Made by a program: the position numbers and the translations under genes
Part shown: positions 1,586 through 63,270 of the stretch, in pieces
Position numbering within the stretch: the stretch's first letter is position 1
Layout: every line of letters starts with the position of its first letter
Source: Terrimonas ginsenosidimutans
GTDB taxonomy: Bacteria > Bacteroidota > Bacteroidia > Chitinophagales > Chitinophagaceae
Assembly: GCF_022012415.1 (NCBI RefSeq)
Contig: NZ_JAKLTR010000004.1
Span: 62,001 to 126,000, forward strand
Direction: 5' to 3'
Length of the DNA: 64,000 bases
Notes under the pieces: generated by a model
What the model was told of the DNA's origin: nothing
Seen by the model: only the letters and a program-made list of their open reading frames with translations
Databases searched by the model: none

Positions 1586-1695
1586 TGGCGTAGAAGTATC
1601 GCAAAGGACGCTAAGTAAACGCAAAGAGCGCAAAGAATAAAACCTTTCCGCTCTTTGCGTTTACTTAGCGTCCTTTGTGATACAGAACTACGCCA
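1586..1695. repeat. Intergenic inverted repeat, class B (9-mer arms)
   Basis: Two arms of about 50 bases pair almost perfectly around a short loop near 1638-1643. The outer ends read TGGCGTAG and CTACGCCA. Next comes GTATCGC on the left and GTGATAC on the right. The arm is then built of CGCAAAGRR-type units in a 9-11-9-9 register. It fills the gap between the convergent usp and alpha-2-macroglobulin genes, where it could act as a bidirectional terminator. It lacks a clean T-tract, and close relatives lie in tandem and divergent gaps. It is nearly identical to the element at 18248-18356, with one compensatory base-pair change. Confidence 0.9.
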
Positions 1696-1701
1696 GCCGG
1701 T

Positions 1702-4700
1702 CTATTGAACGATCCTGATCACACCAGCACCATTGTAAGAATGGTACTCCCCGTTATACATCGCGTCTGCACTCACCGGCCCCATTTTGTACTGACCAGG
1801 CGAAACCGCTCTTACCGCATAATAATATGTCTGTTTATTATTATAGGCGTCCACGAACAAATGCAACCTATCATCTCTCACATCGATCGACGTTGGCGTT
1901 GACGCATCCTTGATCCAGTCCATTCCCGGAATCTCTTTTGTTCTTGGATTCTCGATCTCAAACCCTGCAGGCAGCAGATCTGTGATCACGATATTCTCCA
2001 CGCTACCCGAATAGGTTTTCTCCAGGGTAATGCCAATAATCACGAGGTCATTCTGCCTGAACGTATTTCCGCTGACCGGCGTTCCGAAACGATCAAAGAA
2101 GCGCTTTCTCACTTTCAGGAAATTATCCTCTTCCACATAGTCGCCCGTTGCACTGATCCCTTCCGCTTCCCAGAAGAAGTAAAGATTGCCGGTGCCTTTT
2201 GTAACGACCTGCACATTCGTCCCTTTCAGCGCCGCTTTATCTCCCCGCCATTGGCCTCCCTCTACTTTCGCTACCGTTTTGCCGTCTACCTTTATTTCCG
2301 CCGTCACTGTCGAGCTATTTGCGCTACGCGCCAGTTTACCCAGCGCAAGGAAAGAGAATGCTCTTTCCTGCGTGCTTAACCAGGAACGGCTTTTCAGTTG
2401 CTGACCGACATGTTTTGCCATTACCGGGATCTGCTTGTTCCCCGGATCAACATCTACCAATGCGTTCAGCGCGATCGCTTCATCCCGGACAGCTGAATAA
2501 TAGCTGCCGCCGGTTTGTGTAACCGACTCTTCTCCTGCAAATGAACCGGGAAGAATTGCCGTGAATGATTTCTTATCCCCCGCAGCTGCGTAAGCCGCAG
2601 AAAGCAGGTAGCGGCTATCCAATGCCAGTACCGCAGGGTTCGATTTGTAATAGTTCATTGCCGGGATATTCGTTCTGCCTGCAAGTGCCAGCACATACAA
2701 GCCGTAGGCAACTTCCTTCGGCGCTATCTTCTTCTGCTGATCGCGGTTATAGTAATAAGTGATCAGTTCCCTGTTCTTCAACCGGTGATTGATATAGTTC
2801 AGCATTGTTTCGATCAGGCTGTTATCTACATCAAACCCTGCCTTTCTCGCTTCCAGGAGGAAGTGCGCGGAATAAATGGTAGACCACCAGTCTTCCTTAC
2901 CGCCACCGTCCCACAATGTTACGGCACCGGTGTACAACTGACGCATCTTGATCTTCCGGATAGCTTCCAGGATATTTGAATTCGCATTGGTTTTCTCTTT
3001 TGCATTCAACTGCATCAGGTCAACCATATCTCCATAGTACAATTGCGGGAATGCAGCAGAAACCGTTTGCTCGGTACATCCGTAAGGATACTGAACAAGG
3101 TATCGCAATTGTTCGCCCAGTTCGAGTACCGGAGAGCGGCTTACTACAAAATTGTAATTGCTGCTGCCGGGAATAAAGTCTCTCATACCCACATTGACGG
3201 TCTGGGAACTTCCGCCAGCGATGACACCACTGCCGGTACGCTTCTGCAGTGTTGATGCAGGGCGGATGCTGATCTCCGTCTCATCTTCGAACTTCTCTCC
3301 TGCTCCATTCGCCAGGATCTTGACTTTACCGATCCCTATCACAGGATCTGCAATGATCCGGAATGACGCACGACCTTCTGATTTTGCGGATACGGGAATA
3401 GACTCTGTTGCACTGCCTACGACTTTGAGCCCTCCTTCTACTTTTATAGTAGCAGACACATTGGTCGACTTATCTGTGGTATTGCTCAGTGTAACCGGCA
3501 CGTTCACGGTATCTCCGGGGCTCAGGAATCTGGGCAATGCGGTGCTTAATACGATAGGATCAGCAACAGTCATGGTATTCTCTCCTGACCCAAAACGCTG
3601 TCCTTTGTAAGACACAGCCATCAATCTGATCTCGCCGCTGAATTGCGGGATATCGATCTCGAATTCAGCATTACCGCTGCCATCCGTCTTTTTGATACCG
3701 CTCCAGTAGCTGACAACCTTGATACGCTTCGCAGGCATCGGGTTCACCCTTCGATCCATGCTTAACTCACCGTCACCACCTGTGCTGCTTGATCTTGCCC
3801 GCACTTCAGCAAACAGCAGCGGATACAGGTCGTACGCGCTTACCTGCAAGGCTTTTTGCTGATAGAAGTAATTATAGGGATCGGGGGTTTTAAAATCACT
3901 TACCTGCAGTACGCCGTTATCGACTGCTGAAAGCGTAACATAACTACCCGGTGCGCCTTTGACTTTGATCTTCTGATGTGTTTTTGAACGAACTGTTTTC
4001 TGCGCATCGATCGTTACCGGGATTTCACGGCTTTTCTCCTCCACACTTACATTCTGGAATCCGTGGGCTACCGTTAACGGGATATCCGACATTTCATGGG
4101 GTTTGATCAATGTTGCCGTAATGTATACGTTCGGCACGTGTTCACCGGTGAGCTTCAGGTCAAGACTTGCAGAACGATCATTCACGGTCACATACTGATG
4201 AGATATCAGGTGGTCTGTTTCCATCGTCACCAGCATCCTTCCGCTGAACGGCGTTTTGAAAAGCGCTTTGACTGTTTCGCCTGATTCATATGATTTCTTA
4301 TCAAGCGTGATATCAACATTCCCTTCATTATTCACTTCGAACGAGTTATTATCACCACCCCAGCTTCCGTAGCTATAGAAACTGCGGCTCACATAGCTGT
4401 TCGCGCCGGGGATATAAACCCGCAGTTCATAGTCACCCGGAGAACGCGGGACATAGCTGAACGAAGTATTGTTACCTACATTCAGCTGCACCTCCGTCAT
4501 CATCTTATCCTGCTTCTGCGATTCATAACGGAAATAGCTGCCGCTTTTGCTCAGGACAGTTCTGTATTCGTGCTTGATCACCTGGACCTTTGCGGTAGAA
4601 TTCACTACGCTTCCTTCTTTATTTACCGACACGAGGTCAAACTTCGCGGTTTGATTCAGCGGGAAATAATACATCCAGTCATATTTGATACCATAGAAGA

Positions 4701-7098
4701 CATCCTGCGTATACACGTCTGCAGACACCATCCTGCTTACTGGTCTGCCGGTCTCATCAAAAACGGTTGTGTAAAAATTCGTCTGCAATGCCCCCATGTG
4801 CTGGTAAGTATCTGGTACCTCATAGGTTTCCACAGCATTTCCTTCCGCATCCGTTTTGCCTTCCTTTACCTGCTTATCAAAGAATGTATTCTGATTGGCG
4901 AGGCTGAAATTATAATTGCTGAATTTTTCCGGTGAGAAGCTTTTTTGTTTTACCTGGATCTCCGTTTCATAGTTGCGGTTAGCTGCCGGCGGACCGAAGA
5001 AGTTCATGGCATTGATAGAAAGCTGTGATGACTGTCCGGGTTTTAATGCCGTTGCACTCAGCTTCGCATTCACGCGGATACGATCCGGCACGAACTCTTC
5101 AATGGAGAAATTTTTGGAAGCCAGCAGTACATCATTCGACGTGTAAACTTCGAGTGTATAACTGCCGGTTATAGCCGAAGTGGCGATATCCACATTTCCT
5201 TCCACAGCACCTTCATCATTCAGGTTCTTACGGAAGGTTTTGAGTTCTTTTCCATTTGGCATCAGGAACTTCATTTTCAGCGGGATTTCTCCCGGAGAAT
5301 GCCATTCCCTGTCACGGATGATCACGGAGAAATTCACCCGCTCCCCTGGTCTGTAAATATCCCTTTCGGCATAGACAAATGCGTCCAGGCCGGAAGAGTT
5401 GTTACGTTTACCACCAACTGCAAATCTTGATGTATTGACCCTGGTATTATTGAAAGGCAGATAGTTGAAGTCGTCGGCCGTTTTAGCGATGATCATTGCC
5501 GGCTTGAAACCACTGAACTCTTTTTTGGAGTAAGCGATCGAGGCCACGCCATCTGCGTCCGTTGCACCGGTACCGATCAGTTGGTTATTGGCTGCGTATA
5601 CACTAATGGTCACGCCATTTACAGGATCCGCTGTTTTGATGGAATTCGCAAATACGACGATCTTATCCTCCCCCTGTTTGGCGATCAGACCAATATCTGA
5701 CAAAGAGATAAAGCGGCTGTCTCTCACCCAGTAATCTGTTTCGGAGCGGATCACCACGTGGTATACGCCATTGAAATCCGGTAAGCGATCTTCAAACTGC
5801 GAAAAGTTCAATAATCGTCCGCCGCCACTTTTGGGCAGCGATCTTGTGTCGATCACTTTTTCATAGATCACATCACCGAGGGACGCACTCGTATAGCTAT
5901 CACCGCCATACTCTCCTTCGTAATCATCATAGCCGGGATTGCCGGATTCCTGCGGGTAATAGCCGTAGCGTTGCGCCATCAGCAGGTTGTTCTCATAGAT
6001 CTTGGAGATCACGATCTTCACCTTCTCAACGCTGGTGATACGGACTTCCATATTCTTTGCGCCTTTTTTAGAAAGATAAACGGCTTTATTGTTGGTAAAG
6101 GTGATCCCCGGCTCCAGTTCGCCAAAGGCGATACTTCCATTGTATTCTTCTTTTAACACACCACCGATCTTACCACGCAGACCTTTTGAAATGATCAGGG
6201 TATAGCTTTTATCCACGCTGAACTGGCTGCTGCGGATCGTAAACCCTGATTCATTCGTGCTTACACTGAATGAAACTTCCGGATCGATCTTAATATGCGA
6301 TTTCAGGTTCTCTTCACTCAACTGCTGGCTCGTTACCACATGAACAAAGCCATCTGTCCCGTCATGCTCTGTTTCGAGATTCTGCACTATAAGAGAATAC
6401 GGTGAGGGGATCGTTACTGCAGAAGACAAAGCTTCCGCCGTTGAATTCTTACCGCCTTCGGGCTTTAAGCCTTTTCCAATGGTTATTTTGGAAGAGTAGT
6501 CATTGTCGGAAGACTTCACTCCGTTCAGCCGGACAGAGATCTTCGAGTCTGGAGAAACGGTGAGCAAACTGAATTCCTGCTTCTTTCCGTCGACATCTAT
6601 TTGTAATAGCTCCTTGAGATCAGCGGGGTTGATCTTGTAGTTAAAGAACAGATCCAGCTGAGGTGATGCAGTAGTGCTTGATTCCCCGATCCAGATCACC
6701 TGTGAGCTTTCCAGCTGTAATGCCGGTGTATGAAATTTGATGTCATCGCCGCCACTTACTTTATCGTATTTGCTGAACCGTAGTACAGATGACTTGATCC
6801 TGGCGGTGTAATCCGTTGCCGGATTGAGCGGTTCGGCCGGAGAAAAGACCAGTTGGTCGGGTGTTTCCCAACGATACTTTCCCCTGATCGCCGGCTCAAA
6901 GGAGATATAATCAGTAGAATCCCAAACATTCAGCAGGGAATCGGCAACCATTCCCTGATCGAACCGGAACTGCAGATTCCCAAGTTGGGGAACTTCATCT
7001 TTTGCGTTGGTATAACTAAGAACGGCGGCATTACGGTTGCAGGCCGTCACGACAAAGGCAATCGAGGCAAAAACTGCCAGGAATCTTTTGAAATACAT
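1702..7098 (-). CDS. Bacterial alpha-2-macroglobulin family lipoprotein (YfhM-like)
   Basis: This 1798-residue protein has the layout of bacterial alpha-2-macroglobulins: an N-terminal lipoprotein signal (VVTAC, Cys20), a long series of MG beta-sandwich domains, and a thioester motif YPYGCTEQ with Cys1341. A helical thiol-ester domain follows with a WWSTIYSAHFLLEA-like segment, and the C-terminus is a receptor-binding-like domain. Such proteins are thought to trap proteases in the periplasm by covalent thioester capture. The thioester Cys and Gln are both present, so the trap should work. The divergent neighbour encodes PBP1C, the usual partner of this family, which suggests protection or repair of the cell wall after envelope damage. 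The lipobox fixes the start. Confidence 0.93.
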   Translation of the reverse strand: MYFKRFLAVFASIAFVVTACNRNAAVLSYTNAKDEVPQLGNLQFRFDQGMVADSLLNVWDSTDYISFEPAIRGKYRWETPDQLVFSPAEPLNPATDYTARIKSSVLRFSKYDKVSGGDDIKFHTPALQLESSQVIWIGESSTTASPQLDLFFNYKINPADLKELLQIDVDGKKQEFSLLTVSPDSKISVRLNGVKSSDNDYSSKITIGKGLKPEGGKNSTAEALSSAVTIPSPYSLIVQNLETEHDGTDGFVHVVTSQQLSEENLKSHIKIDPEVSFSVSTNESGFTIRSSQFSVDKSYTLIISKGLRGKIGGVLKEEYNGSIAFGELEPGITFTNNKAVYLSKKGAKNMEVRITSVEKVKIVISKIYENNLLMAQRYGYYPQESGNPGYDDYEGEYGGDSYTSASLGDVIYEKVIDTRSLPKSGGGRLLNFSQFEDRLPDFNGVYHVVIRSETDYWVRDSRFISLSDIGLIAKQGEDKIVVFANSIKTADPVNGVTISVYAANNQLIGTGATDADGVASIAYSKKEFSGFKPAMIIAKTADDFNYLPFNNTRVNTSRFAVGGKRNNSSGLDAFVYAERDIYRPGERVNFSVIIRDREWHSPGEIPLKMKFLMPNGKELKTFRKNLNDEGAVEGNVDIATSAITGSYTLEVYTSNDVLLASKNFSIEEFVPDRIRVNAKLSATALKPGQSSQLSINAMNFFGPPAANRNYETEIQVKQKSFSPEKFSNYNFSLANQNTFFDKQVKEGKTDAEGNAVETYEVPDTYQHMGALQTNFYTTVFDETGRPVSRMVSADVYTQDVFYGIKYDWMYYFPLNQTAKFDLVSVNKEGSVVNSTAKVQVIKHEYRTVLSKSGSYFRYESQKQDKMMTEVQLNVGNNTSFSYVPRSPGDYELRVYIPGANSYVSRSFYSYGSWGGDNNSFEVNNEGNVDITLDKKSYESGETVKALFKTPFSGRMLVTMETDHLISHQYVTVNDRSASLDLKLTGEHVPNVYITATLIKPHEMSDIPLTVAHGFQNVSVEEKSREIPVTIDAQKTVRSKTHQKIKVKGAPGSYVTLSAVDNGVLQVSDFKTPDPYNYFYQQKALQVSAYDLYPLLFAEVRARSSSTGGDGELSMDRRVNPMPAKRIKVVSYWSGIKKTDGSGNAEFEIDIPQFSGEIRLMAVSYKGQRFGSGENTMTVADPIVLSTALPRFLSPGDTVNVPVTLSNTTDKSTNVSATIKVEGGLKVVGSATESIPVSAKSEGRASFRIIADPVIGIGKVKILANGAGEKFEDETEISIRPASTLQKRTGSGVIAGGSSQTVNVGMRDFIPGSSNYNFVVSRSPVLELGEQLRYLVQYPYGCTEQTVSAAFPQLYYGDMVDLMQLNAKEKTNANSNILEAIRKIKMRQLYTGAVTLWDGGGKEDWWSTIYSAHFLLEARKAGFDVDNSLIETMLNYINHRLKNRELITYYYNRDQQKKIAPKEVAYGLYVLALAGRTNIPAMNYYKSNPAVLALDSRYLLSAAYAAAGDKKSFTAILPGSFAGEESVTQTGGSYYSAVRDEAIALNALVDVDPGNKQIPVMAKHVGQQLKSRSWLSTQERAFSFLALGKLARSANSSTVTAEIKVDGKTVAKVEGGQWRGDKAALKGTNVQVVTKGTGNLYFFWEAEGISATGDYVEEDNFLKVRKRFFDRFGTPVSGNTFRQNDLVIIGITLEKTYSGSVENIVITDLLPAGFEIENPRTKEIPGMDWIKDASTPTSIDVRDDRLHLFVDAYNNKQTYYYAVRAVSPGQYKMGPVSADAMYNGEYHSYNGAGVIRIVQ

Positions 7099-7112
7099 AA
7101 GGTTTGGTTAGG

Positions 7113-7131
7113 TTCTCTTTTATAAAGAGAA
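7113..7131. promoter_or_regulatory. Perfect dyad next to the alpha-2-macroglobulin start
   Basis: TTCTCTTT and AAAGAGAA form a perfect 8-bp inverted repeat with a 3-base centre, 15 bases upstream of the alpha-2-macroglobulin ATG. On the minus strand a TACCTTCT box (7128-7135) overlaps its outer edge and resembles the Bacteroidota -7 element. The dyad could be an operator or a 5' UTR hairpin. The function is inferred. Confidence 0.35.
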
Positions 7132-7350: not shown

Positions 7351-7481
7351 TCGTTGTCCGTTGACTGTTCACCGTTGACCGTTGTCCGTTGACCGTTGTC
7401 CGGAAAGACTGTTACCAAATGCTGTTTATGGATCGTTTTCTTGCGGGCAACGGACAACGGTTAACGGTCAACGGACAACGG
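7351..7481. repeat. Intergenic inverted repeat, class A (CCGTTGW heptads)
   Basis: The left arm (7351-7402) is seven consecutive variants of the heptamer CCGTTGT/CCGTTGA. The right arm (7448-7481) is the complementary array of CGGACAA/CGGTCAA units. The spacer of about 45 bases contains CGTTTTCTTGCGG and resembles the spacer of the element at 61997-62108. The element lies in the 451-base gap 7099-7549 between two divergent genes, so it cannot be an ordinary terminator. Apart from this repeat, the dyad at 7113-7131 and a weak TACCTTTA box at 7519-7526 before pbpC, nothing else is visible in the gap. Confidence 0.9.
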
Positions 7482-7549
7482 CTGCTGAATTTTATCTAAA
7501 CATTTTCATCCGTATTTCTACCTTTACGCCATCCGCCGCCAGGCAATAT

Positions 7550-9877: not shown

Positions 9878-9985
9878 GACTGGCGTATTGGTATCGCGAA
9901 GCGCGCAAAAGATCCGCGAAGCATGCCAAGAACACTCAGCGTTCTTGGCGGATCCTTCATGCTTCGCGATACTGATACGCCAGTC
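9878..9985. repeat. Intergenic inverted repeat, class B
   Basis: The ends GACTGGCGTAT and ATACGCCAGTC are perfectly complementary. Inside follow GTATCGCGAAG on the left and CTTCGCGATAC on the right, then CGCGAAG-type units, closing on CCAAGAAC/GTTCTTGG. It lies 6 bases after the pbpC stop codon and before a co-directional gene. It shares the outer GGCGTA...GTATCGC frame with the other class B elements. Confidence 0.88.
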
Positions 9986-14340: not shown

Positions 14341-14466
14341 ACTGGCGTAATTAGCAACGCAAAGAACGCAAAGGACCGCAAAGAACGCAACGAAATCTCA
14401 TAGTAAAGACTGATTCCTTTGCGCCCGTTGCGGTCCTTTGCGTTCTTTGTGTTACTCCTACGCAGT
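14341..14466. repeat. Intergenic inverted repeat, class B
   Basis: The arms are 14341-14392 and 14426-14466. The left arm starts ACTGGCGTAA and continues as CGCAAAGAA/CGCAAAGGA units. The right arm carries the complement (GGTCCTTTGCG, GTTCTTTG) and ends CTACGCAGT. It lies between two minus-strand genes, 9 bases after the stop of neither: the GIN-domain stop is at 14476 and the amine oxidase start is at 14170. Confidence 0.88.
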
Positions 14467-15303: not shown

Positions 15304-15416
15304 CGTTGACCGTTGACCGTTGTCCGATTATGACCATGCCCGAGCAAATTCGAGAGCCTGCCGTTCCCGGCCGGACAACGGTCAACGATGAACGGACTAC
15401 GATGAACGGTCAACGG
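15304..15416. repeat. Intergenic inverted repeat, class A (heptads)
   Basis: The left arm (15304-15326) holds three CGTTGAC/CGTTGTC heptads. The right arm (15372-15416) holds six in-register heptads of the complementary type (CGGACAA, CGGTCAA, CGATGAA). The spacer is unrelated to those of the other two class A copies. It lies in a divergent gap between the GIN-domain gene and guaA, and its right arm ends 8 bases before the guaA promoter box. Confidence 0.88.
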
Positions 15417-18247: not shown

Positions 18248-18356
18248 CAGCGTAGTTGTATCGCAAAGGGCGCTAATTAAACGCAAAGAGCGCTAAGAAT
18301 AAAACCTTTGCGCTCTTTGCGTTTACTTAGCGCCCTTTGCGATACTCCTGCGCCAG
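18248..18356. repeat. Intergenic inverted repeat, class B
   Basis: It is almost the same as 1586-1695: the same GTATCGC start, the 9-11-9-9 unit register and the loop AAGAATAAAACCTTT. The third unit pair differs by a compensatory change (GGACGC/GCGTCC at 1586-1695 against GGGCGC/GCGCCC here). Each copy also carries a few unpaired differences. It lies between two co-directional genes. Confidence 0.9.
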
Positions 18357-19460: not shown

Positions 19461-19605
19461 CAGGTTTAAGAGGTTCCATAAGTTCCATAGGTTTCATAGG
19501 TTCTCAGATACTTAAACCCCTATTCCCTAATAAAATACTCAAGCAATCGCACTAGTGAAGCTTGCTATTTATTGAACCTATGAAACCGCCCAGACCTTAG
19601 AAACC
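19461..19605. repeat. Intergenic inverted repeat with 9-mer arms (AGGTTYCAT)
   Basis: The left side is an array of AGGTTCCAT/AGGTTTCAT nonamers (about 19461-19503). A perfect 14-bp match pairs GGTTTCATAGGTTC (19490-19503) with 19574-19587, and a weaker match continues to about 19605. It fills the gap between the exonuclease and ligase genes and is related in style to the class C octamer repeats. Confidence 0.82.
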
Positions 19606-21224: not shown

Positions 21225-21323
21225 AAGTTTAATAGTTTAATAGTTTTCAAGTTTGATAGTTTGCTCCATAGAACCATTGAACCATTAAACTTTCAAGCTC
21301 TTAAACTATTAAACTTTCAAACC
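21225..21323. repeat. Intergenic inverted repeat, class C (AGTTTAAW octads)
   Basis: The left arm (about 21225-21263) is five octamers of the type AGTTTAAT. The right arm (about 21288-21323) carries the complement (AAACTTTC, AAACTATT). It lies in the ligase-helicase gap. The arms match only approximately in register. Confidence 0.85.
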
Positions 21324-30538: not shown

Positions 30539-30831
30539 TATTTAAACGGGACAACCTTCAACTCGGATTGATTCTTGGCCTTCTTGGGCCGGTTCTTGGC
30601 CTGATGGTCATTTATCTTGCCAGCTATTCATCCGTTTCCCTCGGTATTTTCCTGGAAAGCTTTTTTAGCGATAAGCGCCTGCTGACGCCGATCGGCTCGC
30701 TTTCCCTACTGGCAAACGTCGCATTATTCACCATATTTGTCAATACCCGCCGGGATAAGACCGCTAAGGGCATCTTCGTTATGACGGTGATCTTTGGAAT
30801 CGCGATTCTGATCCTGAAAGTCACGAATTAA
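30535..30831 (+). CDS. Small multi-pass membrane protein of unknown function
   Basis: A 98-residue protein with three hydrophobic segments (about residues 8-30, 47-66 and 75-94), probably three transmembrane helices. The ATG overlaps the surE stop codon (ATGA), so translation is coupled. An in-frame TTG six bases upstream is less likely. I do not recognise the family; no catalytic motif is visible. It ends directly before a class D inverted repeat and is followed by lpxB. Confidence 0.75.
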   Translation: MIFKRDNLQLGLILGLLGPVLGLMVIYLASYSSVSLGIFLESFFSDKRLLTPIGSLSLLANVALFTIFVNTRRDKTAKGIFVMTVIFGIAILILKVTN

Positions 30832-30834
30832 GTG

Positions 30835-30981
30835 AAATAAAAAGTCAAAATTAAAAAGTAAAAAATAGCGTCTTTAGATTGTTTTTCCCAATACCCGGCG
30901 AGGTTTTCTCTACGGCGGTTGAAAGATCAAACTAATCAATTGAGGCTGGTTTTTAATTTTTACTTTTGACTTTTTAATTTC
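30835..30981. repeat. Intergenic inverted repeat, class D (AAGTNAA heptads)
   Basis: The left arm (30835-30866) is in-register heptads AAATAAA, AAGTCAA, AATTAAA and AAGTAAA. The right arm (30950-30981) is the complement. A stretch of 28 bases in the left arm is identical to the element at 60715-60834, although their spacers differ. The right arm contains the -7 box of the lpxB promoter. Confidence 0.88.
30940..30968 (+). promoter_or_regulatory. Putative lpxB promoter inside the repeat arm
   Basis: TTG (30940-30942), 18 bases, then TACTTTTG (30961-30968) fit the Bacteroidota promoter well. The -7 box is part of the class D repeat arm. The expected start of transcription lies about 10-12 bases before the lpxB ATG at 30986. 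Confidence 0.55.
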
Positions 30982-30985
30982 CCTC

Positions 30986-32281: not shown

Positions 32282-32313
32282 GGATTTTGACGGGAACAGG
32301 GAATAATTTGAAC

Positions 32314-32418
32314 GGCGTAAGAGTATCGCGGAGAATACAAAGAAGACGCAAAGAGCGCGAAGATCATCTTTTGCGTTCTCTGCGTCTTCTTTGCGCTCTC
32401 TGCGATACTTATACGCCA
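32314..32418. repeat. Intergenic inverted repeat, class B
   Basis: The ends are GGCGTAAGAGTATCGC and GCGATACTTATACGCC. Inside, both arms keep the 9-11-9 register (CGCAAAGAG-type units). A short loop lies around GATCATC. It is between two minus-strand genes: the small membrane protein start at 32269 and the kinase stop at 32437. Confidence 0.9.
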
Positions 32419-32436
32419 GTCAGTTATACGAAAACC

Positions 32437-35034: not shown

Positions 35035-35132
35035 GGCAGAGTATCGCAAGGACGCAGAGGCTGCGCGAAGTACGCCAAAAAATACTTAGCGTACCTTGCG
35101 GCTTCTTTGCGTCCTTCGCGATATTCCCGCCC
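35035..35132. repeat. Intergenic inverted repeat, class B
   Basis: The left side starts GTATCGCAAGGACGC and the right side ends GCGTCCTTCGCGATA. The units keep an 8/9-11-9 register, and the apex is GTACGCC/GCGTACC. The outer GGCGTA part is decayed to GGCAGA/CCCGCC. It lies in the 320-base divergent gap 34902-35221, with the LacI-type operators on one side and a TATATTCG box (35195-35202) on the other. Nothing else is visible in that gap. Confidence 0.85.
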
Positions 35133-56658: not shown

Positions 56659-56663
56659 TTAAT

Positions 56664-56782: not shown

Positions 56783-56807
56783 CACGGAAAGATTTATCGA
56801 AGATCTT

Positions 56808-58082
56808 TTACAAGCCTGTCGCCACGGTCACCAGTCCTCTTTCTTTGATCAGGTTCTCACGTACTTTCAGTGAGCGATACAGGCCGATCGGGTTTAATGC
56901 GCCACCAGCCCTCAACCTTGCTTCAGCCACCAGCGGGCGAACATCTGTACGATATGCATCCTGCAGTAATTCCTGCGCTTTTACTGTATCATTTTCCTGC
57001 CGCGCCTGATCCAATGCTTTTGCATCAACCAGCAAAGCCTGTGCATAGGCGAGCTGGATCGCTTCAACAGACTGCAGCAGGTCTTCCAGCGGATCTTTTA
57101 CGTTGTGTGAAGCGTCGATCATCCAGCCAAGATCAGTTGCATGATTCATCCCTTTCGCATCCATTCCTTCCACCAGTTCCTGGAAGATTAGGAATAATTG
57201 ATAAGGATTGATACTGCCAACAGTCAGATCGTCATCGCCATACTTGGAATCGTTGAAATGGAAACCACCCAGCTTACCTTCCATCAGCAATAACGAAACG
57301 ATCTGCTCGATATTCGCGTTCGGCAGATGATGCCCAAGATCAACAAGTGTGTATGCCTTTGGCCCCAGCTTGCTTGCATATAATAACGATTGGCCCCAAT
57401 CGCCTACCGTAGTTGAATAAAAGTTTGGTTCAAATGCTTTGTACTCCACAAAGACCTTCCAGTTATCAGGCAATGCAGCATAGATCTCCTTCAGGCTTTC
57501 TAATGTGTTCTGGAATGCTTTCCTGAAATTCAGCTGCCCGGGAAAACAGGAGCCGTCAGCCAGCCAAACAGTCAATGATTCGGAACCGAGTGCAACACCC
57601 TGCCTGATCACTTCAATATTATGTTCGATCGCCTGTTTGCGTACCGCTTTATCGACGTGCTGCAAAGAGCCAAACTTATAGCTATGCTGTTGTCCTTTCT
57701 GATCCTGGAATGTATTGGAATTAACTGCGTCAAAACGAAGACCGTGTTGCGCAGCGAGTGCTTTTATAGACGTTGCATTTTCTGGTATATCCCATGGGAT
57801 GTGTAAGGAGATCGCGCCACTGGATTGGTTGAGGGCCTGCAATAACCCAACATCTTCGATCTTCTCTTCAAGGTTGCGGGGTTCACCCCCTATGGAGAAC
57901 CTTCCGAATCTTGTGCCGCCTGCGCCAAGTGCCCAACTTGGGATGGCCACCTGAAATGCTATAAGTTTCTCGATGACCGAAGCTGTATTTGCAATCGAGC
58001 CAGTCAACCCGGAAAGCTTTGCTTTATGTGTGGATAACTGACTATCGTTTAACTCCTGTATCCTATATTTTTCAATCAGCAT
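56808..58082 (-). CDS. rhaI: L-rhamnose isomerase
   Basis: A 424-residue TIM-barrel sugar isomerase that converts L-rhamnose to L-rhamnulose. It resembles the Pseudomonas stutzeri-type L-rhamnose isomerase rather than the E. coli RhaA. Metal-ligand segments are FVEYKAFEPNFYST, TLVDLGHHLPNANIEQI and LGGFHFNDSKYGDDDL. The N-terminal stretch WALGAGGTRFGRF is typical of this subfamily. It is translated 14 bases after rhaM. The long C-terminal helical extension has normal length for the family. Confidence 0.92.
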   Translation of the reverse strand: MLIEKYRIQELNDSQLSTHKAKLSGLTGSIANTASVIEKLIAFQVAIPSWALGAGGTRFGRFSIGGEPRNLEEKIEDVGLLQALNQSSGAISLHIPWDIPENATSIKALAAQHGLRFDAVNSNTFQDQKGQQHSYKFGSLQHVDKAVRKQAIEHNIEVIRQGVALGSESLTVWLADGSCFPGQLNFRKAFQNTLESLKEIYAALPDNWKVFVEYKAFEPNFYSTTVGDWGQSLLYASKLGPKAYTLVDLGHHLPNANIEQIVSLLLMEGKLGGFHFNDSKYGDDDLTVGSINPYQLFLIFQELVEGMDAKGMNHATDLGWMIDASHNVKDPLEDLLQSVEAIQLAYAQALLVDAKALDQARQENDTVKAQELLQDAYRTDVRPLVAEARLRAGGALNPIGLYRSLKVRENLIKERGLVTVATGL

Positions 58083-58096
58083 AGCAATAGACGTTT

Positions 58097-58411
58097 TTAA
58101 AGTAAATAGAAAACTTCATCAAGCGGGATACTTACGGGCGATTTATCTGCATTCGTCTCCATAATATCCGCCATGTGCACCCACCATTTTTTCATGATCG
58201 GCTCCTCCGGCAATTTAGCCATTACCGCCGGATCTTCGATCTGCAATACTCCAAAAAGAGTGTTATCGTTTTTATCTAAGAAGATGGAATAATCGCTGAT
58301 ACCGCTTCCTTTCAACAAAGATTGCAGTTCGGGCCAGAGTTCATCGTGGCGGCGTTTGTATTCTTCTTCATAGCCTTTGAAGAGTTTCATTTTGAAAGCG
58401 AGCCGTGTCAA
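58097..58411 (-). CDS. rhaM: L-rhamnose mutarotase
   Basis: A 104-residue protein of the RhaM family that converts alpha- and beta-L-rhamnose, feeding the isomerase. The family pattern is visible: RLAFKMKLFKGYEEEYKRRH, ELWPEL, the NTLFGVLQIED strand and the WWVHMADIM helix. The start is a TTG at 58411. The next ATG (58390) would remove the conserved RxAFxM strand, so the TTG is preferred. It lies between the aldolase fusion and rhaI. Confidence 0.9.
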   Translation of the reverse strand: MTRLAFKMKLFKGYEEEYKRRHDELWPELQSLLKGSGISDYSIFLDKNDNTLFGVLQIEDPAVMAKLPEEPIMKKWWVHMADIMETNADKSPVSIPLDEVFYLL

Positions 58412-58419
58412 AAGGGAAG

Positions 58420-58549
58420 AGTTTAAAAGTTTGTTAGTTAAAAAGTTTAATAGTTTAAAGGTTTGATAGTTTAACGTTACTCCAGCCAGGGACGTTTCAG
58501 TAATAGCTTAAGGCATTAAAAACTATTAAACCTTTAAACTGTTAAACTC
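58420..58549. repeat. Inverted repeat inside the rha operon, class C (AGTTTAAW octads)
   Basis: The left arm (58430-58485) consists of seven in-register octamers such as AGTTTAAA and AGTTTAAT. The right arm (about 58517-58549) carries the complement and ends TTAAACTC, pairing with GAGTTTAA at 58429-58436. It fills the gap between the rhaEW stop (58557) and the rhaM start (58411) within a transcription unit. Confidence 0.88.
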
Positions 58550-58556
58550 TCTTTCT

Positions 58557-60680
58557 CTACCTCACGAATCCTGCAGCAACTCCCCCGTCAATGTTCAGCA
58601 CATTCCCGGTTGATTTGCTCAGCAATCCATTCACGAATGCATAACATCCGTTGGCGATATCTTCAGGAAGAATGATCTCATTCAGTAAAGTCCTTTTTGC
58701 ATAGAATGCCGGCAGATCTTCCACGGCAACACCATATGCTTTCGCACGGCCCTGCGCCCAGGCGCCTTCCCAGATCTTACTGTCACTGATCACCGCATCA
58801 GGGTTCACCGTATTCACACGGATATGATCTTTACCCAATTCTGCCGCGTTCAGGCGGCTGAGATGAAGCTGTGCAGCTTTTGCTGAACCATACCCTGCGT
58901 TATTCGGACCAGATACCAATGCATTCTTGCTAACGATATTCAAGACATCTCCACCGAGATCCTGCTTACGCATCAGGTTCACGCCCGCCTGTGTTACCAG
59001 GAACTGGCCTTTTACCAATACGTCATACAACAGATCCCAGTCTTTTTCAGTATGCTCTTCCAGTGGCTTTGAGATGGACAAACCAGCGCAATTCACTACG
59101 ATATCCACGCCACCGAACTGCAACGCCGCTTTATCAAACGCAGCTTCGATAGCAGCTTTATCTGTTACGTCCAGCACAGCTGAACCGAAATTATCTTTAT
59201 TGAATTTTTTGGAGAAATCCTCGAGTGAAGTATTCAGTCTTGACTCATCATTATCATTGATCACAATACAAGCTCCTTCTTCGATGAATTTCTTCGCGAT
59301 AGCTTTACCAATTCCACCCGCGCTTCCTGTTACCAGTGCGATTTTACCTGATAAGGCTTTTGGCTTTGGCAAACGCTGCAGCTTTGCTTCTTCCAGCAAC
59401 CAGTATTCGATATCAAATGCTTCCTGGCGCGGCAGTGAAGTGTATTCAGAGATTGCTTCCGCTCCACGCATGACATTGATCGCATTCACATAGAACTCCG
59501 CTGCAATACGCGCGGTAGATTTATCTTTCGCAAAAGTGAACATCCCTACTCCGGGGTATAGGATCACCACCGGATTTGCATCACGGATGGCCGGGCTGTT
59601 CGGATGTTTGCAGGTTTCATAATATTCAGTATACATCTTCCTGTATGCCTCAAACTGCGGAGCCAGTGCTGTTTTCAATGCAGCCGGATCAGTAAGATCA
59701 GCATCAGGAGCAAGCTCCAGCACAAGCGGACTGATCTTCGTACGCAGGAAGTGATCGGGGCAACTGGTACCCATTGGCGCCAGTTTAGCAAGATTTTTGG
59801 AATTGATGTATTGCAATACAACATCGGTATGTACAAAGTGACCAATCATATTTACCGCGGAAGAGCAGAAGCCTCTCAATACCGGCGACAACAATGTAGC
59901 CTGGGAGATGCGTTGTGCTTCTGGCAATGCTTTTACTTTTTCACCACCAAAAACAGCGGGCTGCTTTGCAATAGCAGACTCAATATAGGATGCGCATTTA
60001 TCGATCACTTCCAGTGAATTGATATAGCACTCATAAGCGGTATCGCCCCAGGTGAACAGGCCATGCGAACCCAGCATGATGCCACGGATACCCGGGTTCT
60101 CGTCGAGGCACTGTTTCAATTTCAGACCAAGATCAAATCCCGGACGCTGCCATTCTACCCAACCGATCGTTCCGCCAAACAATTCCTGCGTGATCTTCTT
60201 ACCATCTTTCGCGGCAGCGATCGCAATAGCCGCATCAGGATGCAGGTGGTCAATATGTTTGAAAGGTAAAAATCCATGTAGCGGTGTATCGATCGACGGG
60301 GCTTTTGATGCAAGATCATAAATGCAATGGTTGAACAACTCTACCATTTCATCCTCATGCGCCAGGCCACGATACACTTTTGTCAGGCTGCGCAGGCGAT
60401 CAACATACAGACCGGCCAGACCGCTACGGGTCAATGTACCAATATCTCCGCCCGATCCTTTGATCCACATCACCTCTGTTTCCTCACCTGTCAATGGATC
60501 TTTCTCGATCGTTTTACAGGATGTATTGCCTCCACCATAATTGGTCAAACGGAGGTCCGCTCCCAGCATATTGGAACGATAGATCAGCAGGGCCACTTCA
60601 TCGCCCGCCAGGGAAGCTGCTTTTGCTTCATCCCACAAATAACTCACGTGTTTGAACTGCTTGATAGCTACAGTCGACAT
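58557..60680 (-). CDS. rhaEW: Bifunctional L-rhamnulose-1-phosphate aldolase / L-lactaldehyde dehydrogenase
   Basis: A fusion of 707 residues. Residues 1 to about 430 are a class II aldolase: the phosphate-binding segment GGNTSCKTIEKDP and WIKGSGGDIGTL, and zinc ligands in GFLPFKHIDHLHPDA and MLGSHGLFTWGDT. Residues from about 440 to 707 are a short-chain dehydrogenase with the NAD motif VTGSAGGIGKAIA, NCAGLS, and the catalytic Tyr/Lys in GYGSAKAAQL. The first part splits rhamnulose 1-phosphate into dihydroxyacetone phosphate and L-lactaldehyde. The second oxidises the aldehyde to L-lactate. The same fusion is known as YuxG/RhaEW in other bacteria. It avoids release of reactive lactaldehyde. 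Confidence 0.93.
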   Translation of the reverse strand: MSTVAIKQFKHVSYLWDEAKAASLAGDEVALLIYRSNMLGADLRLTNYGGGNTSCKTIEKDPLTGEETEVMWIKGSGGDIGTLTRSGLAGLYVDRLRSLTKVYRGLAHEDEMVELFNHCIYDLASKAPSIDTPLHGFLPFKHIDHLHPDAAIAIAAAKDGKKITQELFGGTIGWVEWQRPGFDLGLKLKQCLDENPGIRGIMLGSHGLFTWGDTAYECYINSLEVIDKCASYIESAIAKQPAVFGGEKVKALPEAQRISQATLLSPVLRGFCSSAVNMIGHFVHTDVVLQYINSKNLAKLAPMGTSCPDHFLRTKISPLVLELAPDADLTDPAALKTALAPQFEAYRKMYTEYYETCKHPNSPAIRDANPVVILYPGVGMFTFAKDKSTARIAAEFYVNAINVMRGAEAISEYTSLPRQEAFDIEYWLLEEAKLQRLPKPKALSGKIALVTGSAGGIGKAIAKKFIEEGACIVINDNDESRLNTSLEDFSKKFNKDNFGSAVLDVTDKAAIEAAFDKAALQFGGVDIVVNCAGLSISKPLEEHTEKDWDLLYDVLVKGQFLVTQAGVNLMRKQDLGGDVLNIVSKNALVSGPNNAGYGSAKAAQLHLSRLNAAELGKDHIRVNTVNPDAVISDSKIWEGAWAQGRAKAYGVAVEDLPAFYAKRTLLNEIILPEDIANGCYAFVNGLLSKSTGNVLNIDGGVAAGFVR

Positions 60681-60714
60681 AGTTGCTTTTTTATTGTTAT
60701 TGTCTTATCGAAGC

Positions 60715-60834
60715 AAGTGAAAAGTGAAAAGTAAAAAGTCAAAATTAAAAAGTAAAAAAATATTCATTTAGCAGAAAGTATCTAACAAATTTTGACTTTT
60801 GATTTTTCACTTTTTACTTTTCACTTTTTACTTT
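60715..60834. repeat. Inverted repeat inside the rha operon, class D (AAGTNAA heptads)
   Basis: The left arm (60716-60761) is six in-register heptads (AAGTGAA twice, AAGTAAA, AAGTCAA, AATTAAA, AAGTAAA). The right arm (60787-60834) is the complementary array and extends over the last two codons and stop of rhaT. The left arm shares 28 identical bases with the element at 30835-30981. Confidence 0.9.
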
Positions 60835-61916
60835 AACGAATTACCCTTTCCAACGATCAGTACGGAAATGATAATGGTAATAATTCCGGTTATGATCGTT
60901 CTTGTTGTATTCTTTGAAACTCCTTTCCATTCTTTCAACACCAGGCCCCACATATTTGCGATCAGGATAATGAAGGCCATGTGCAGGATCCACGAACTGG
61001 GTCCGTTGCCCATCTTACTTTCCCCCATGCCATAAAAGAAGAACTGGAGAAACCATGTTGTGCCTGCGAGTGCAGCAAAAAAGTAGTTTGACTTTAACGG
61101 CGTTTTCTTATTGGTATAGTCACCGAATGTTTTATTTTTTGCATTCAGCATCATACACCAGATAAAATTGGTAGTAAGTCCGCCCCAAAGTATCACCACA
61201 TACACAACATTATTCTGGTATAGGAACTCTCCCTGATTGGGGTTTGCAAGTTTCCAGGTTTCGTTGGCGATATCTGCCATTGGTTTACCGGCTTCAAGAC
61301 CGAAGTTGAAGCAGGCGCTCAACACGCCGGAGATCACAGAAACCAGCATTCCCAGTCCGAATTTATATTCTGTTTTCACAACTGCCCCGTGTGGATCAGT
61401 AGCAGAAGAGCTCAATTCTTTTTCCTTCATCATTCCTGCCCGTCCGCAAATGATAATCCCCAGTACGCAAACCGCCAGTCCCGCGAGAACAGTCAGCCCC
61501 CAGTTGGTACCGATGAGCATCGTAAAGGTATCTTTCCCTTCTTTCGGGAAAATATCATAGTAGACAGACGGGATCAGCGCTCCGAAGACCATGCACAACC
61601 CAAGAATGATACTGCTGCCTAATGAAACTCCCAGATACCTGACGCCTAACCCATAGGTCAGTCCGCCGACGCCCCATAGCACACCAAACAACAATGTGTA
61701 CCAGAAAATGCTGGATGAAGCTCCGCGGATAATATCCGCAAACCCGGGAATGGTTAGCCATGCTGCCAGAGGGGGAACGATCAACCAGGAAAAAAGGCCA
61801 CCCACGATCCAGTAACTTTCCCAATTCCAGCCTTTTACCTTTTTATAAGGCATGTAAAAACTGCCGGATGCGAATCCACCTATAAAGTGGAAGATAACTC
61901 CAAGGATTACTTGCAT
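60828..61916 (-). CDS. rhaT: L-rhamnose:H+ symporter
   Basis: A 362-residue inner-membrane transporter with about ten transmembrane helices, of the RhaT family of the drug/metabolite superfamily. Family segments are GFASGSFYMPYKKVKGWNWESYW, GALIPSVYYDIFPKEGKD and WGLTVLAGLAVCVLGIIICGRAG. It brings free L-rhamnose from the periplasm into the cell. It is the first gene of the rha operon and divergent from the GntR-type regulator. The last codons lie in a class D inverted repeat. Confidence 0.95.
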   Translation of the reverse strand: MQVILGVIFHFIGGFASGSFYMPYKKVKGWNWESYWIVGGLFSWLIVPPLAAWLTIPGFADIIRGASSSIFWYTLLFGVLWGVGGLTYGLGVRYLGVSLGSSIILGLCMVFGALIPSVYYDIFPKEGKDTFTMLIGTNWGLTVLAGLAVCVLGIIICGRAGMMKEKELSSSATDPHGAVVKTEYKFGLGMLVSVISGVLSACFNFGLEAGKPMADIANETWKLANPNQGEFLYQNNVVYVVILWGGLTTNFIWCMMLNAKNKTFGDYTNKKTPLKSNYFFAALAGTTWFLQFFFYGMGESKMGNGPSSWILHMAFIILIANMWGLVLKEWKGVSKNTTRTIITGIITIIISVLIVGKGNSLK

Positions 61917-61922
61917 AATTTT

Positions 61923-61948
61923 CTATATAGCAATACAATATAGCGCTA
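61923..61948. promoter_or_regulatory. Dyad upstream of rhaT, candidate operator
   Basis: CTATAT (61923-61928) and ATATAG (61938-61943) form an inverted repeat, directly continued by the palindrome TAGCGCTA (61941-61948). It lies 7-32 bases before the rhaT start. It may be the site of the GntR-type regulator encoded divergently. This is a weak sequence signal. Confidence 0.3.
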
Positions 61949-61996
61949 AAAATAAAAGATCGGTATTGGCTGCCCATCATGGACTATCATGTAATT

Positions 61997-62108
61997 TCGT
62001 TGACCGTTGTCCGTTGTCTGTTGACCGGAAAACAGTGATACTAAGCATATTTTGCGGTTTACAGACCGTTTTCTTCCGGACAACGGTCAACCGGGAACGG
62101 TCAACGAA
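61997..62108. repeat. Intergenic inverted repeat, class A (heptads)
   Basis: The left arm (61997-62033) carries heptads TCGTTGA, CCGTTGT, CCGTTGT and CTGTTGA, then CCGGAAA. The right arm (62068-62108) carries the complement. The spacer contains CGTTTTCTTCCGG and resembles that of the copy at 7351-7481. It lies in the divergent gap between rhaT and the regulator, 31 bases before the regulator start; a TACATTTT box (62119-62126) stands between. Confidence 0.9.
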
Positions 62109-62139
62109 CCTAACTCAATACATTTTCTAATCCAGGATC

Positions 62140-63171
62140 ATGAAGTCTTCACCCGTATACAAACTGATCTACTTCGACGATTTTTCCGCTACACCGAAAT
62201 ACCAGCAACTGGCCAATTCGATCGTAAAGGCGATTGAAGATGGTAAACTGCAGGTGGATGATGTGCTGCCCTCGATTAATGAACTGAGCTTTCAATTCGA
62301 GATCTGCCGGGATACAGCCGAAAAGGGTTATAAATTCCTGAAAAACCAGGGTATCATCGGATCCGTACCGGGAAAAGGCTACTTTATTAAAAGTGTAGAT
62401 GTGAACCGGACGACGAAGATCTTCCTCATGTTCAACAAACTCAGCCCGCACAAAAAGATCATCTATGATTCGCTGGTGAGTACGCTGGGCGATAGTGCCA
62501 CGATCGATTTCTATATATATAATAACGATCTGGCTTTGTTCAAAAAGTTATTGCAGAACAGCAAGAATGATTATAACTATTACGTAATACTGCCGCATTT
62601 TATAGAAGGTGAAGAGACGGCACACAAAATATTGAACACGATCCCAAAGGAAAAGCTGATCCTGCTCGATAAGATCATTCCGGGCGTAACAGGACAGTTC
62701 GGGGCCGTGTATGAAAATTTCGAGAAGGACATTTACAGTTCACTGGAGCAGGCACTCCCCTTGCTGGAAAAATATCATACCGTTAAGATCATCTTCCCGG
62801 AGAACAGCTATTATCCGGAAGAGATCATTAAAGGATTTGAATCGTTCTGCCAGAACTATACATTCAACTACAAAGTAGTGCATGATATCGAAAAAGAGTC
62901 GATCAATAAAGGTGAAGTATTCATCAACCTGATGGACAATGATCTTGTAGTACTGATCGAAAGGATCATCGAATCAAAACTGAAAGTAGCCAAAGATGTT
63001 GGTGTGATCTCTTACAACGAAACACCATTAAAAAAAATCATCCTTGACGGCATCACTACCATCTCAACAGACTTCGAAGCAATGGGGATAGAAACTGCCA
63101 GAATCATCCAGGGAAACACACTGAAGCATGTGCAGATACCGTTCTCTTTGAATGTGAGGGCATCGCTGTAA
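62140..63171 (+). CDS. GntR-family transcriptional regulator with sugar-binding (LacI-like) effector domain
   Basis: Residues from about 10 to 82 form a GntR winged helix (PKYQQLANSIVKAIEDGKL, DVLPSINELSFQF, GIIGSVPGKGYFI). Residues from about 90 to 343 resemble the periplasmic-binding-like effector domain of LacI regulators (IFLMFNKL, YYVILPHFIEGE, VGVISYNETPLKKIILDGITTISTDFEAMG). This GntR-PBP combination is common for sugar regulators in Bacteroidota. Its divergent place next to the rha operon makes it the likely rhamnose-responsive regulator, perhaps also of the PUL. Experimentally known rhamnose regulators in Bacteroides are of AraC type, so this would be a different solution. Confidence 0.87.
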   Translation: MKSSPVYKLIYFDDFSATPKYQQLANSIVKAIEDGKLQVDDVLPSINELSFQFEICRDTAEKGYKFLKNQGIIGSVPGKGYFIKSVDVNRTTKIFLMFNKLSPHKKIIYDSLVSTLGDSATIDFYIYNNDLALFKKLLQNSKNDYNYYVILPHFIEGEETAHKILNTIPKEKLILLDKIIPGVTGQFGAVYENFEKDIYSSLEQALPLLEKYHTVKIIFPENSYYPEEIIKGFESFCQNYTFNYKVVHDIEKESINKGEVFINLMDNDLVVLIERIIESKLKVAKDVGVISYNETPLKKIILDGITTISTDFEAMGIETARIIQGNTLKHVQIPFSLNVRASL

Positions 63172-63270
63172 AGTTCAAAAATTTAAAGGTTTAATAGTTT
63201 AAAGGTTCTAACACCCTTCACAGGGTAAACTTCTAAACTATTAAACCTTTAAACTTTTAAACCTTAGAAC
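63172..63270. repeat. Intergenic inverted repeat, class C (octads)
   Basis: The left arm (63172-63212) is five in-register octamers (AGTTCAAA, AATTTAAA, GGTTTAAT, AGTTTAAA, GGTTCTAA). The right arm (63228-63270) is their complement and reaches into the stop codon of the convergent outer-membrane protein gene. An inner hairpin ACCCT-TCAC-AGGGT (63213-63226) forms the loop. Confidence 0.9.

Follow-up and report, generated by a model that had tools for sequence, protein, structure and literature searches.

REP and REPIN elements with their RAYT transposases are short, dispersed, intergenic and present in many copies, lie mostly in co-directional and convergent gaps, pair in inverted orientation into larger hairpins and form tandem clusters of whole elements (PMC3733652, PMC3116915), and the hairpins analyzed here resemble them in each of these respects. 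Unlike REPs, which are single palindromes of 20–40 nt, our hairpins have arms of tandem 7–11 nt words; moreover, the tandem-arm families share, by eye, no GTAG/CGTC head and do not adjoin the full-length Y1 gene. In the P6b region of the Nostoc trnL (UAA) intron, a stem is likewise built of degenerate heptamers, whose two classes (class I TDNGATT, class II NNTGAGT) repeatedly replace each other and whose units are gained and lost on both stem sides; that case (PMC4476775) concerns one intron locus, whereas here many intergenic loci and unit families are involved. Arrays of the heptamer TAACTGA are also intergenic and known from five Bacteroidetes, but they are direct repeats mostly just upstream of starts, with a single inverted case (PMC4679880), whereas our hairpins are convergent pairs mostly near stops. 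In the Galileo transposons of Drosophila, the inverted arms contain direct repeats in tandem, whose expansion in one arm is independent of the other, and the arms recruit adjacent sequence and have been proposed to attract recombination and conversion (PMC3573991). Unlike Foldback and Galileo elements, the hairpins here are bacterial, measure ~100–200 bp and not kilobases, have units of 7–11 nt, and could be linked to no transposase in a Y1 family search. The Foldback transposons of Drosophila group with Galileo as an analogue, and our elements do have the foldback-type structure, in which each inverted arm is a run of direct repeats in tandem. Classical MITEs are matched by the CGATGG kind only, with its 18-bp terminal inverted repeats (TIRs), ~9-bp target duplication and conserved core.

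The preliminary description of this DNA knew of no account of such a system; close analogues were, however, already in print. Among the matches listed by the literature queries, several of them truncated (for one, the best 12 of 807), no title or abstract opening described hairpins of the tandem-arm type from Chitinophagaceae. The origin and spread of small bacterial palindromes is an open question in the literature consulted, which is centred on RAYT-linked REPINs. The present case offers many unit families in one genome, unit differences at orthologous hairpins between close species and two in-place loop inversions, three features that make arm-to-arm template switching and hairpin replacement directly testable in close relatives, and it bears on how bacterial 3'-end hairpins arise. 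We conclude that the hairpins of this bacterium and some relatives are, in all likelihood short of certainty, small palindromes that are mobile and in which DNA replication copies one arm from the other.

Within the window (the whole 64,000-nt stretch analyzed), inverted repeats are present at all 15 loci for which the preliminary description, which counted at least seventeen gaps, gave coordinates. Self-alignment at a score of at least 28 returned 13 inverted repeats (scores 35–72), all of them previously listed, vs. 0 in five dinucleotide shuffles, and the fold-energy z-scores of the 15 loci range from −4.4 to −19.4 (100 shuffles per locus). A sample of 858 kb, or 12% of the genome, contained 138 inverted repeats, 101 of which fall into seven arm families, vs. 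0 in one shuffle, and the end TGGCGTAGNAGTATCGC has 149 copies at one mismatch or fewer vs. 0 in its reversed control. Since 106/112 clustered repeats avoid every ORF of 100 aa or more, these are, as REPINs are, dispersed high-copy intergenic palindromes. Chance low-complexity intergenic sequence could produce some of this signal: on a laxer scale the shuffle of 458 kb also gave 15 repeats (vs. 98), the 15304 repeat scores 23 where each window shuffle gives 1–5 repeats at 20 or more, and the 19461 repeat, with arms matching over 14 nt, does not rise above shuffles by self-alignment score alone. For the set as a whole, however, chance is refuted by the shuffles, in which the check proposed at the outset found no similar frequency, and we give it practically no credence. 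At gathering scores, no Rfam family matched the window. The observation of hairpins with tandem-repeat arms is confirmed as real.

CGC-type elements lie at 1586..1695 (CGCAAAGRR units, terminus TGGCGTAG; z −19.4), in a convergent gap, separated by 4 and 6 bp from the stops on its two sides; at 9878..9985 (ends GACTGGCGTA...TACGCCAGTC), in a co-directional gap and 6 bp past a stop codon; at 14353..14456 (CGCAAAGAA units), in a co-directional gap with a stop 19 bp away; and at 18250..18353, 32309..32422 and 35039..35126, in a co-directional, a convergent and a divergent gap, respectively. Arms of the heptamer CCGTTGW flank a loop at 7352..7480 (divergent gap; z −8.1) and recur at 15304..15415 (divergent gap upstream of a GMP synthase gene; z −5.4) and 61996..62108 (divergent gap), while heptameric AAGTNAA arms occupy the whole gap before an lpxB gene at 30831..30984 and are found again at 60715..60833 (lag-7 and lag-14 identity 0.71). 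The 8-mer AGTTTAAW makes up the arms at 21225..21316, 7 bp past a stop codon (lag-8 identity 0.68 and 0.74), at 58415..58560, in a co-directional gap (self-alignment repeat 58444–58548), and at 63149..63286, where the repeat overlaps both ORF ends in a convergent gap; imperfect arms of the 9-mer AGGTTYCAT at 19461..19600, in a co-directional gap, form the weakest of the 15 (z −4.4). The four divergent gaps reported as occupied (7352, 15304, 35039 and 61996) are consistent with the ORFs, and the gaps of 18250, 19461 and 21225, first described as inside one operon, lie within one co-directional run of ORFs. No CGATGG-arm element was seen among these 15 loci.

These hairpins had been taken for a single system, a reading that is unsupported because the set comprises elements of three kinds or more. 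The CGATGG kind, so called from the arms that most of its members have, is a MITE: its ends are 18 bp long, its target duplications measure ~9 bp and its core is conserved, and 38/66 of its genome matches span at least 80 of 131 bases, core included. Elements with CAATGTCGTTTAGTTAAG ends had a flank direct-repeat score of at least 7 in 6/9 end pairs vs. 3/72 mismatched pairs (four of the six with a CGATGG interior); they alone combine a TIR with target-site duplication, which in the CGATGG kind lies outside the true TIR and not at the arm edges. The CGC families of 9–11-mers have in common the terminus GGCGTA, without target duplication, and in the AT-rich 7/8-mer families the arms are the sole shared part. 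The suggestion of MITE-like elements is thus supported for the CGATGG kind. At arm edges, no target duplication was found in 13 of 14 family tests (among them CGCAAAG p=0.995, AGTAAAA p=0.34, AGTTTAA p=0.24, CGTTGTC p=0.59, CGCGGCG p=0.67, CGCAGAT p=0.71, and also TTGAAAA), whereas CTGATTT gave p=0.014; of the tests in relatives, 6/7 were above 0.05; the mobility of these families is therefore something that we infer.

The TGGCGTAGNAGTATCGC end has an inverted partner (at most four mismatches, 76–183 bp off) at 21/30 inspected loci, some overlapping, and one locus (L088) holds three whole-element copies 118 bp apart. Among 92 CAATGTCG-type ends (at most two mismatches) in the draft of 64 contigs, no convergent pair that could mark an autonomous partner lay 0.65–10 kb apart, and among 91 solo arm-like matches in the sample of this genome (G000), a single convergent pair, itself weak, was separated by 2.4 kb (L187). 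An exact AATTTGAA 24-mer, too strict a criterion, had 0 matches over 296 genomes of the phylum. Reversed as a control, the 24-mer reads as AGTTTAAA arrays and had matches, and the reversed control of a further search reads as a AATTTGAA-like array and matched a few genomes, so neither control is clean.

Mobilization as REPINs by a genome-encoded RAYT (Y1 transposase) would suit elements that are palindromic, intergenic and mainly in convergent and co-directional gaps, as REPs are (PMC3733652); Y1 matches were found in 33/44 genomes searched, and GTAG-headed REP-like hairpins occupy the same niche in three relatives (A, B and C, below). However, the Y1/REP link that the preliminary description proposed to look for did not emerge: within 1.5 kb on each side, the sole full-length Y1 gene of G000 has its own, classical GCCCACG palindromes (GCCCACGATTTCAATCGTGGGC) on its 5' side and no tandem-arm hairpins, and a second, partial Y1 match has no adjoining repeat scoring above 26. 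Two genomes without a Y1 match (G007 and G009) nevertheless have one tandem-arm hairpin each (60 kb, a thin sample at low density). Judged by eye from arm starts, the tandem-arm families have no common GTAG/CGTC head tetranucleotide; GTAG occurs inside the CGC terminus. We regard mobilization by a RAYT as very unlikely.

That one unit is common to both arms of a locus, with other units at other loci, holds genome-wide. The further claim of a fixed unit length stood in 8/14 window elements, in which both arms had the same best lag (7, 8 or 9), while the lags differed by a factor of two (7 vs. 14) in 3/14 and disagreed in 3/14; both arms reached at least 0.55 at one shared lag in 7/98 repeats. 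The CGC family is loosely periodic (lag-9 identity mostly 0.35–0.6), which matches the 9–11 bases first given for it, and autocorrelation is too weak as its main test because unit spacing varies. When arrays were located by unit and not by complementarity, convergent neighbouring pairs numbered 88 in G000, vs. 3 divergent pairs and 3 pointing in the same direction (67, 4 and 3 in three relatives pooled). Arms were more similar within a locus than between loci in G000 for AGTTTAA (p=0.0002), AAAAGTA (p=0.0008) and CGCAAAG (p=0.0002); this mirroring failed for CCGATG (p=0.69), was marginal for CCGTTG (p=0.058) and gave p under 0.05 in 2/10 tests in relatives (4–8 loci each). With arms fixed at 42 nt, loops were unrelated in most AT-rich families (related pairs 0/21 for AGTTTAA and 0/15 for AGTAAAA), which is unlike the result of recent whole-element transposition.

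Fixed convergent polarity and unrelated loops would also be expected of a dedicated telomerase- or reverse-transcriptase-like array writer that puts the same word on either side of a break or loop. The 88:3:3 polarity, the unrelated loops of most AT-rich families, the joint change of both arms between species and a unit vocabulary that varies by genus all agree with such a writer, but degenerate positions mirrored between arms in three families are not expected from independent writing, and the CGATGG kind is a MITE. The Y1 family search of the genome returned neither the dedicated enzyme first suggested nor a mobilizing one, and we hold a writer of this sort to be extremely unlikely.

When orthologous gaps were compared, as had been called for, hairpins were often retained and the unit was sometimes changed in both arms. 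Among three congeneric relatives (A, B and C) compared with one another, most mapped elements keep a hairpin at the orthologous gap, and a hairpin of a different family was found there for 6/34 (A to B), 4/32 (A to C) and 4/32 (B to C) mapped, classified elements. The loop is inverted, with flanks in the original orientation, at 2 loci, which make up the 4 inversions among 42 same-family orthologous pairs. In 65 non-independent orthologous pairs, with the structure taken from one member of each, 41 double changes keep pairing vs. 21 that break it, the remaining cells being 328 single changes and 1867 unchanged. Double changes that keep pairing could also stem from selection for RNA pairing. 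An A/B indel listing for empty sites held mostly replacements and alignment noise, with few clean insertions, and unit vocabulary is not alike between genera. In genome G001, the gap orthologous to 15304 holds a hairpin of the 9-mer ACCAAGACN instead, that of 1586 has, by eye, a terminator-like stem in place of the hairpin, the short gap of 18250 is without one, and that of 32309 is too short for any.

We consider it rather probable that the hairpins are non-autonomous REPIN/MITE-like palindromes with slippage-grown arms, arm copying by template switching, and tolerance or use at gene 3' ends. Small palindromic repeats belonging to several non-autonomous families would have spread through the intergenic DNA of this lineage, those without target duplications included. 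Their arms of short words would lengthen and shorten by slippage, and one arm would serve repeatedly as template for the other through replication template switching (quasipalindrome correction), which would sometimes invert the loop and would hold both arms to one version of the unit, peculiar to the locus, even as the loop decays. Slippage and template switching were both raised in the preliminary description, and signs of each were found: dozens of heptamers arrayed on one side at locus L364 for the former, mirrored arms in three families and the two loop inversions for the latter. Homogenization of inverted-repeat arms and inversion of spacers by template switching have been described (PMC8604942; PMC8794818). 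Copies would build up where they are least harmful, or as 3'-end hairpins, behind stops and chiefly between convergent genes, and one hairpin kind could supplant another at the same site.

The median distance from an element edge to the stop codon is 11 bp in G000 (n=115) and 1 bp in the three relatives (n=119), vs. 65 and 61 bp to the start, and in co-directional gaps 36/47 and 66/73 elements are closer to the stop than to the start, a location behind stop codons like that of intrinsic terminators. Inverted repeats were found in 9/11, 8/14, 7/14 and 32/96 convergent gaps vs. 2/11, 3/13, 1/13 and 17/89 divergent gaps (A, B, C and G000, respectively). The assertion that these are not simply terminators is thus sound insofar as divergent gaps are also occupied, but is weakened by the strong 3' bias. 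It is possible, though we think it unlikely, that the hairpins are kept for function as putative bidirectional transcription terminators or mRNA 3'-end stabilizers, and that selection sees nothing of the stem but its existence and length, which would leave the sequence free to change. The closeness to stops, the fuller convergent gaps, the different hairpin kinds that one orthologous gap can hold and the terminator-like G001 stem at 1586 would all follow; yet purifying selection against promoter insertions predicts an equal bias, divergent gaps are occupied, several orthologous G001 gaps have no hairpin (the convergent 32309 gap among them), most sampled genomes of the family do without (occupancy 0.03–0.07, 39 stretches), and those CCGTTG-family ends that face a gene start have a promoter-like motif nearby in 5/14. 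We judge it decidedly improbable that in this lineage a self-templating, transposase-independent, replication-based process installs and periodically rewrites the words of both arms at once while the place of the hairpin behind genes stays conserved; if so, the hairpin would persist from species to species although its words of 7, 8 or 9 bases differ. The GTAGAGAC elements of the relatives are a family apart from the tandem-arm hairpins.

We found an inverted repeat at all 15 window loci to which the preliminary description, which listed long inverted repeats in at least 17 intergenic gaps, most of them with tandem-array arms, had assigned positions; 13 of them scored ≥28, a level reached by 0 repeats in five dinucleotide shuffles of the window, and fold z-scores across the 15 ranged from -4.4 to -19.4. 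The other two, at 15304 (score 23) and 19461 (14-nt arms), are inverted repeats that do not stand above the shuffles by score. Within 858 kb of the Terrimonas ginsenosidimutans draft assembly (7.14 Mb, 64 contigs; 41 stretches, 12% of the genome), we counted 138 inverted repeats (score ≥30, span ≥60) vs. 0 in one shuffle, a density that may be slightly too high because some stretches were picked near known matches to CGC-type arm units. Clustering by arm took in 112 of the 138, not all with tandem arms; the seven largest clusters held 101 (CGCAAAG, 36; AGTAAAA, 18; AGTTTAA, 13; CGTTGTC, 11; CGCGGCG, 10; CGATGGC, 7; CGCAGAT, 6), the remaining five held 2–3 each, and 6/112 clustered repeats lay in ORFs of ≥100 aa. 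The terminus TGGCGTAGNAGTATCGC occurred in 149 copies at ≤1 mismatch (0 in a reversed control), with an inverted partner end (≤4 mismatches) 76–183 bp away at 21 of the 30 loci read; it is common, with variation, to the CGCAAAG and CGCGGCG families, and the CGCAGAT family has part of it (GGCGTA). In one stretch (L088:1501–1859), three CGC-type elements stand in tandem at 118-bp spacing.

When arrays were searched by unit alone, to avoid selecting for complementarity, neighbours within 250 bp were overwhelmingly convergent, both in five T. ginsenosidimutans families (88 convergent, 3 divergent, 3 same-direction) and in three relatives of one genus, here called Pinibacter A, B and C (67, 4 and 3, respectively). 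In T. ginsenosidimutans, arms of the same locus resembled each other more than arms of different loci for AGTTTAA, AAAAGTA and CGCAAAG (p 0.0002–0.0008), marginally for CCGTTG (p=0.058) and not for CCGATG (p=0.69); in the relatives, p was <0.05 in 2 of 10 such tests, each with 4–8 loci. Once 42-nt arms had been cut off, related loops were rare (AGTTTAA, 0/21 pairs; AGTAAAA, 0/15; CGTTGTC, 1/36; CGATGGC, 3/21; TTGAAAA in Pinibacter A, 1/55), so that for most families identity resides in the arms and whole-element copies are few. CCGTTG arms at L187:7786, L018:8707 and L011:5620 flank a common, itself palindromic core (ACAAATTAAAAGNGAGGGGCTATCG or near) and are whole-element copies, the loops of this family being otherwise mostly unrelated.

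Orthologous gaps, which the preliminary description had proposed comparing for presence, absence and unit change, were examined in Pinibacter. In aligned blocks, identity to A is 90.1% for B and 85.4% for C. Among mappable elements outside ORFs and in clusters of two or more, the family was kept in 22/34 (A to B), 20/32 (A to C) and 20/32 (B to C), differed in 6/34, 4/32 and 4/32, and the gap lacked an element in 5/34, 8/32 and 8/32, with one unclassified repeat (A to B); a gap-based recount with stricter placement gave fewer replacements (2, 4 and 2). At A56229, a GTAGAGAC palindrome in A corresponds to a TCATGATT hairpin in B and a CAGATTTG hairpin in C; at A60522, TTGAAAR in A is TTGAGAG in both arms in B; and TTAGGAA in A and B is AATTAATAATTAATA in C (C37748). 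Loops of replaced loci were unrelated (21 comparisons including reciprocal ones, best score 12). In 42 same-family orthologous pairs with sufficiently long loops, 25 loops scored ≥18 forward, 8 as reverse complement and 1 shuffled; the inverted alignment was clearly better in four pairs, representing two loci whose flanks were not inverted (A13463 vs. B38361 and C24224; A32139, 43 vs. 18, and B57024 vs. C42952). Double changes kept pairing in 41 cases vs. 21 that did not, which is compatible with template switching and also with selection on RNA.

Our best reading is that the elements are non-autonomous palindromes, the arms of which would lengthen by slippage while template switching would rewrite each arm from the other. 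The proposed process would account for the two inversions and for the way in which each locus has one unit in both arms, degenerate positions that mirror each other and a loop of its own. Template switching has been reported to homogenise inverted-repeat arms and to invert spacers (PMC8604942; PMC8794818). REPINs, MITEs, Foldback/Galileo and the trnL P6b stem each match part of the anatomy; the portions of the literature on these analogues that we consulted describe no many-family tandem-arm hairpins in one genome with unit replacement at orthologous gaps.

Template switching alone does not explain dispersal, which for the CGATGG kind is transposition and which we infer to be transposition for the others. 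The suggestion that the elements are MITE-like holds for the CGATGG kind, with its ends, core and target duplication of ~9 bp. At the arm edges of the CGC and AT-rich families, 13 of 14 tests gave no duplication; CTGATTT, in the relatives, was the exception (p=0.014). A CGATGG query had 66 matches in T. ginsenosidimutans, 38 of which spanned ≥80 of the 131 query bases, the core among them. Outer ends like CAATGTCGTTTAGTTAAG were present in five of the six copies retrieved and in three further stretches, which carry heptamer arrays of two to dozens of units and usually the core. Pairs of such ends (≤4 mismatches per end) had a flank direct repeat of about 9 bp (score ≥7) in 6/9 vs. 3/72 mismatched pairs, and four of the six enclose a CGATGG interior; at L365, with more diverged ends, TTTACAATT lies on either side by eye. 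Across 92 ends (≤2 mismatches), no convergent pair lay 0.65–10 kb apart, and hence no autonomous copy was seen in the draft assembly. CAATGTCGTTTAGTTAAG-type ends also bound CGCGGCG hairpins (L025 and L363, the latter a mosaic). The two subterminal stretches of L364 share a single type, the likeness that arm-to-arm copying would produce. The same stretch (L364:269–700) has dozens of CGATGRC heptamers on one side of the MITE core vs. about five on the other, a strong one-sided expansion.

A link to a Y1 (RAYT) transposase, for which a search had been advised, did not emerge: the full-length Y1 gene in T. ginsenosidimutans (144 aa; L009, C2:20963–21307) is accompanied 5' by GCCCACG palindromes of its own (GCCCACGATTTCAATCGTGGGC). 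At L024:14252–14666 there are inverted pairs that are nearly identical, and gene and palindromes look like an ordinary RAYT/REPIN system alongside the tandem-arm hairpins.

Elements lay close behind genes. Median distances to the stop codon were 11 bp in T. ginsenosidimutans (n=115) and 1 bp in Pinibacter (n=119), and those to the start 65 and 61 bp, the start distances being rough because ORFs were called mechanically; in co-directional gaps they were nearer the upstream stop in 36/47 and 66/73, respectively. Inverted repeats of the set occupied 32/96 convergent and 17/89 divergent gaps in T. ginsenosidimutans, and 9/11, 8/14 and 7/14 convergent and 2/11, 3/13 and 1/13 divergent gaps in A, B and C. 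The ligase protein of the congener G001 is at 87% to that of T. ginsenosidimutans, and other named matches to this protein come mostly from Chitinophagaceae. That the elements are required terminators is argued against by G001, whose gaps corresponding to 18250, 19461, 21225 and 32309 are short and hairpin-free by eye, and by an occupancy of 0.03–0.07 in 39 other stretches from Chitinophagaceae. Of 14 element ends of the CCGTTG family that face a gene start in T. ginsenosidimutans, 5 have TAnnTTYG within 20 bp, where shuffles predict 0.03 within 40 bp, and this family may therefore sit at promoters.

Stretches of 12–20 kb from 40 family genomes yielded 29 repeats at score ≥34 vs. 1 in shuffles; by eye, about nine of these genomes have tandem arms built from further units (TGAATAAC, TTGAAAR, AATTTGAA, GTATAAAA, GTGAAAR and more). 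CGC arrays (≤2 mismatches) occurred in 19/117 family genomes, counting T. ginsenosidimutans and G001, and exceeded two matches only in T. ginsenosidimutans (25), Pinibacter C (5) and genomes G384 (13), G052 (8), G043 (3) and G388 (3); the reversed control gave one match in each of three genomes. AGTTTAAW arrays (≤1 mismatch), for which the control was not clean, appeared in 9/296 phylum genomes, T. ginsenosidimutans having 327 matches and the other eight genomes all coming from a single different family in the class. In genomes of another family within this class, AGTTTAAA arrays at L335, L337, L356 and L358 keep a constant orientation directly upstream of promoter-like TAnnTTTG motifs (the Bacteroidota -7 element) and frequently lack an inverted partner; at L333, L336 and L360 the arrays do form hairpins.
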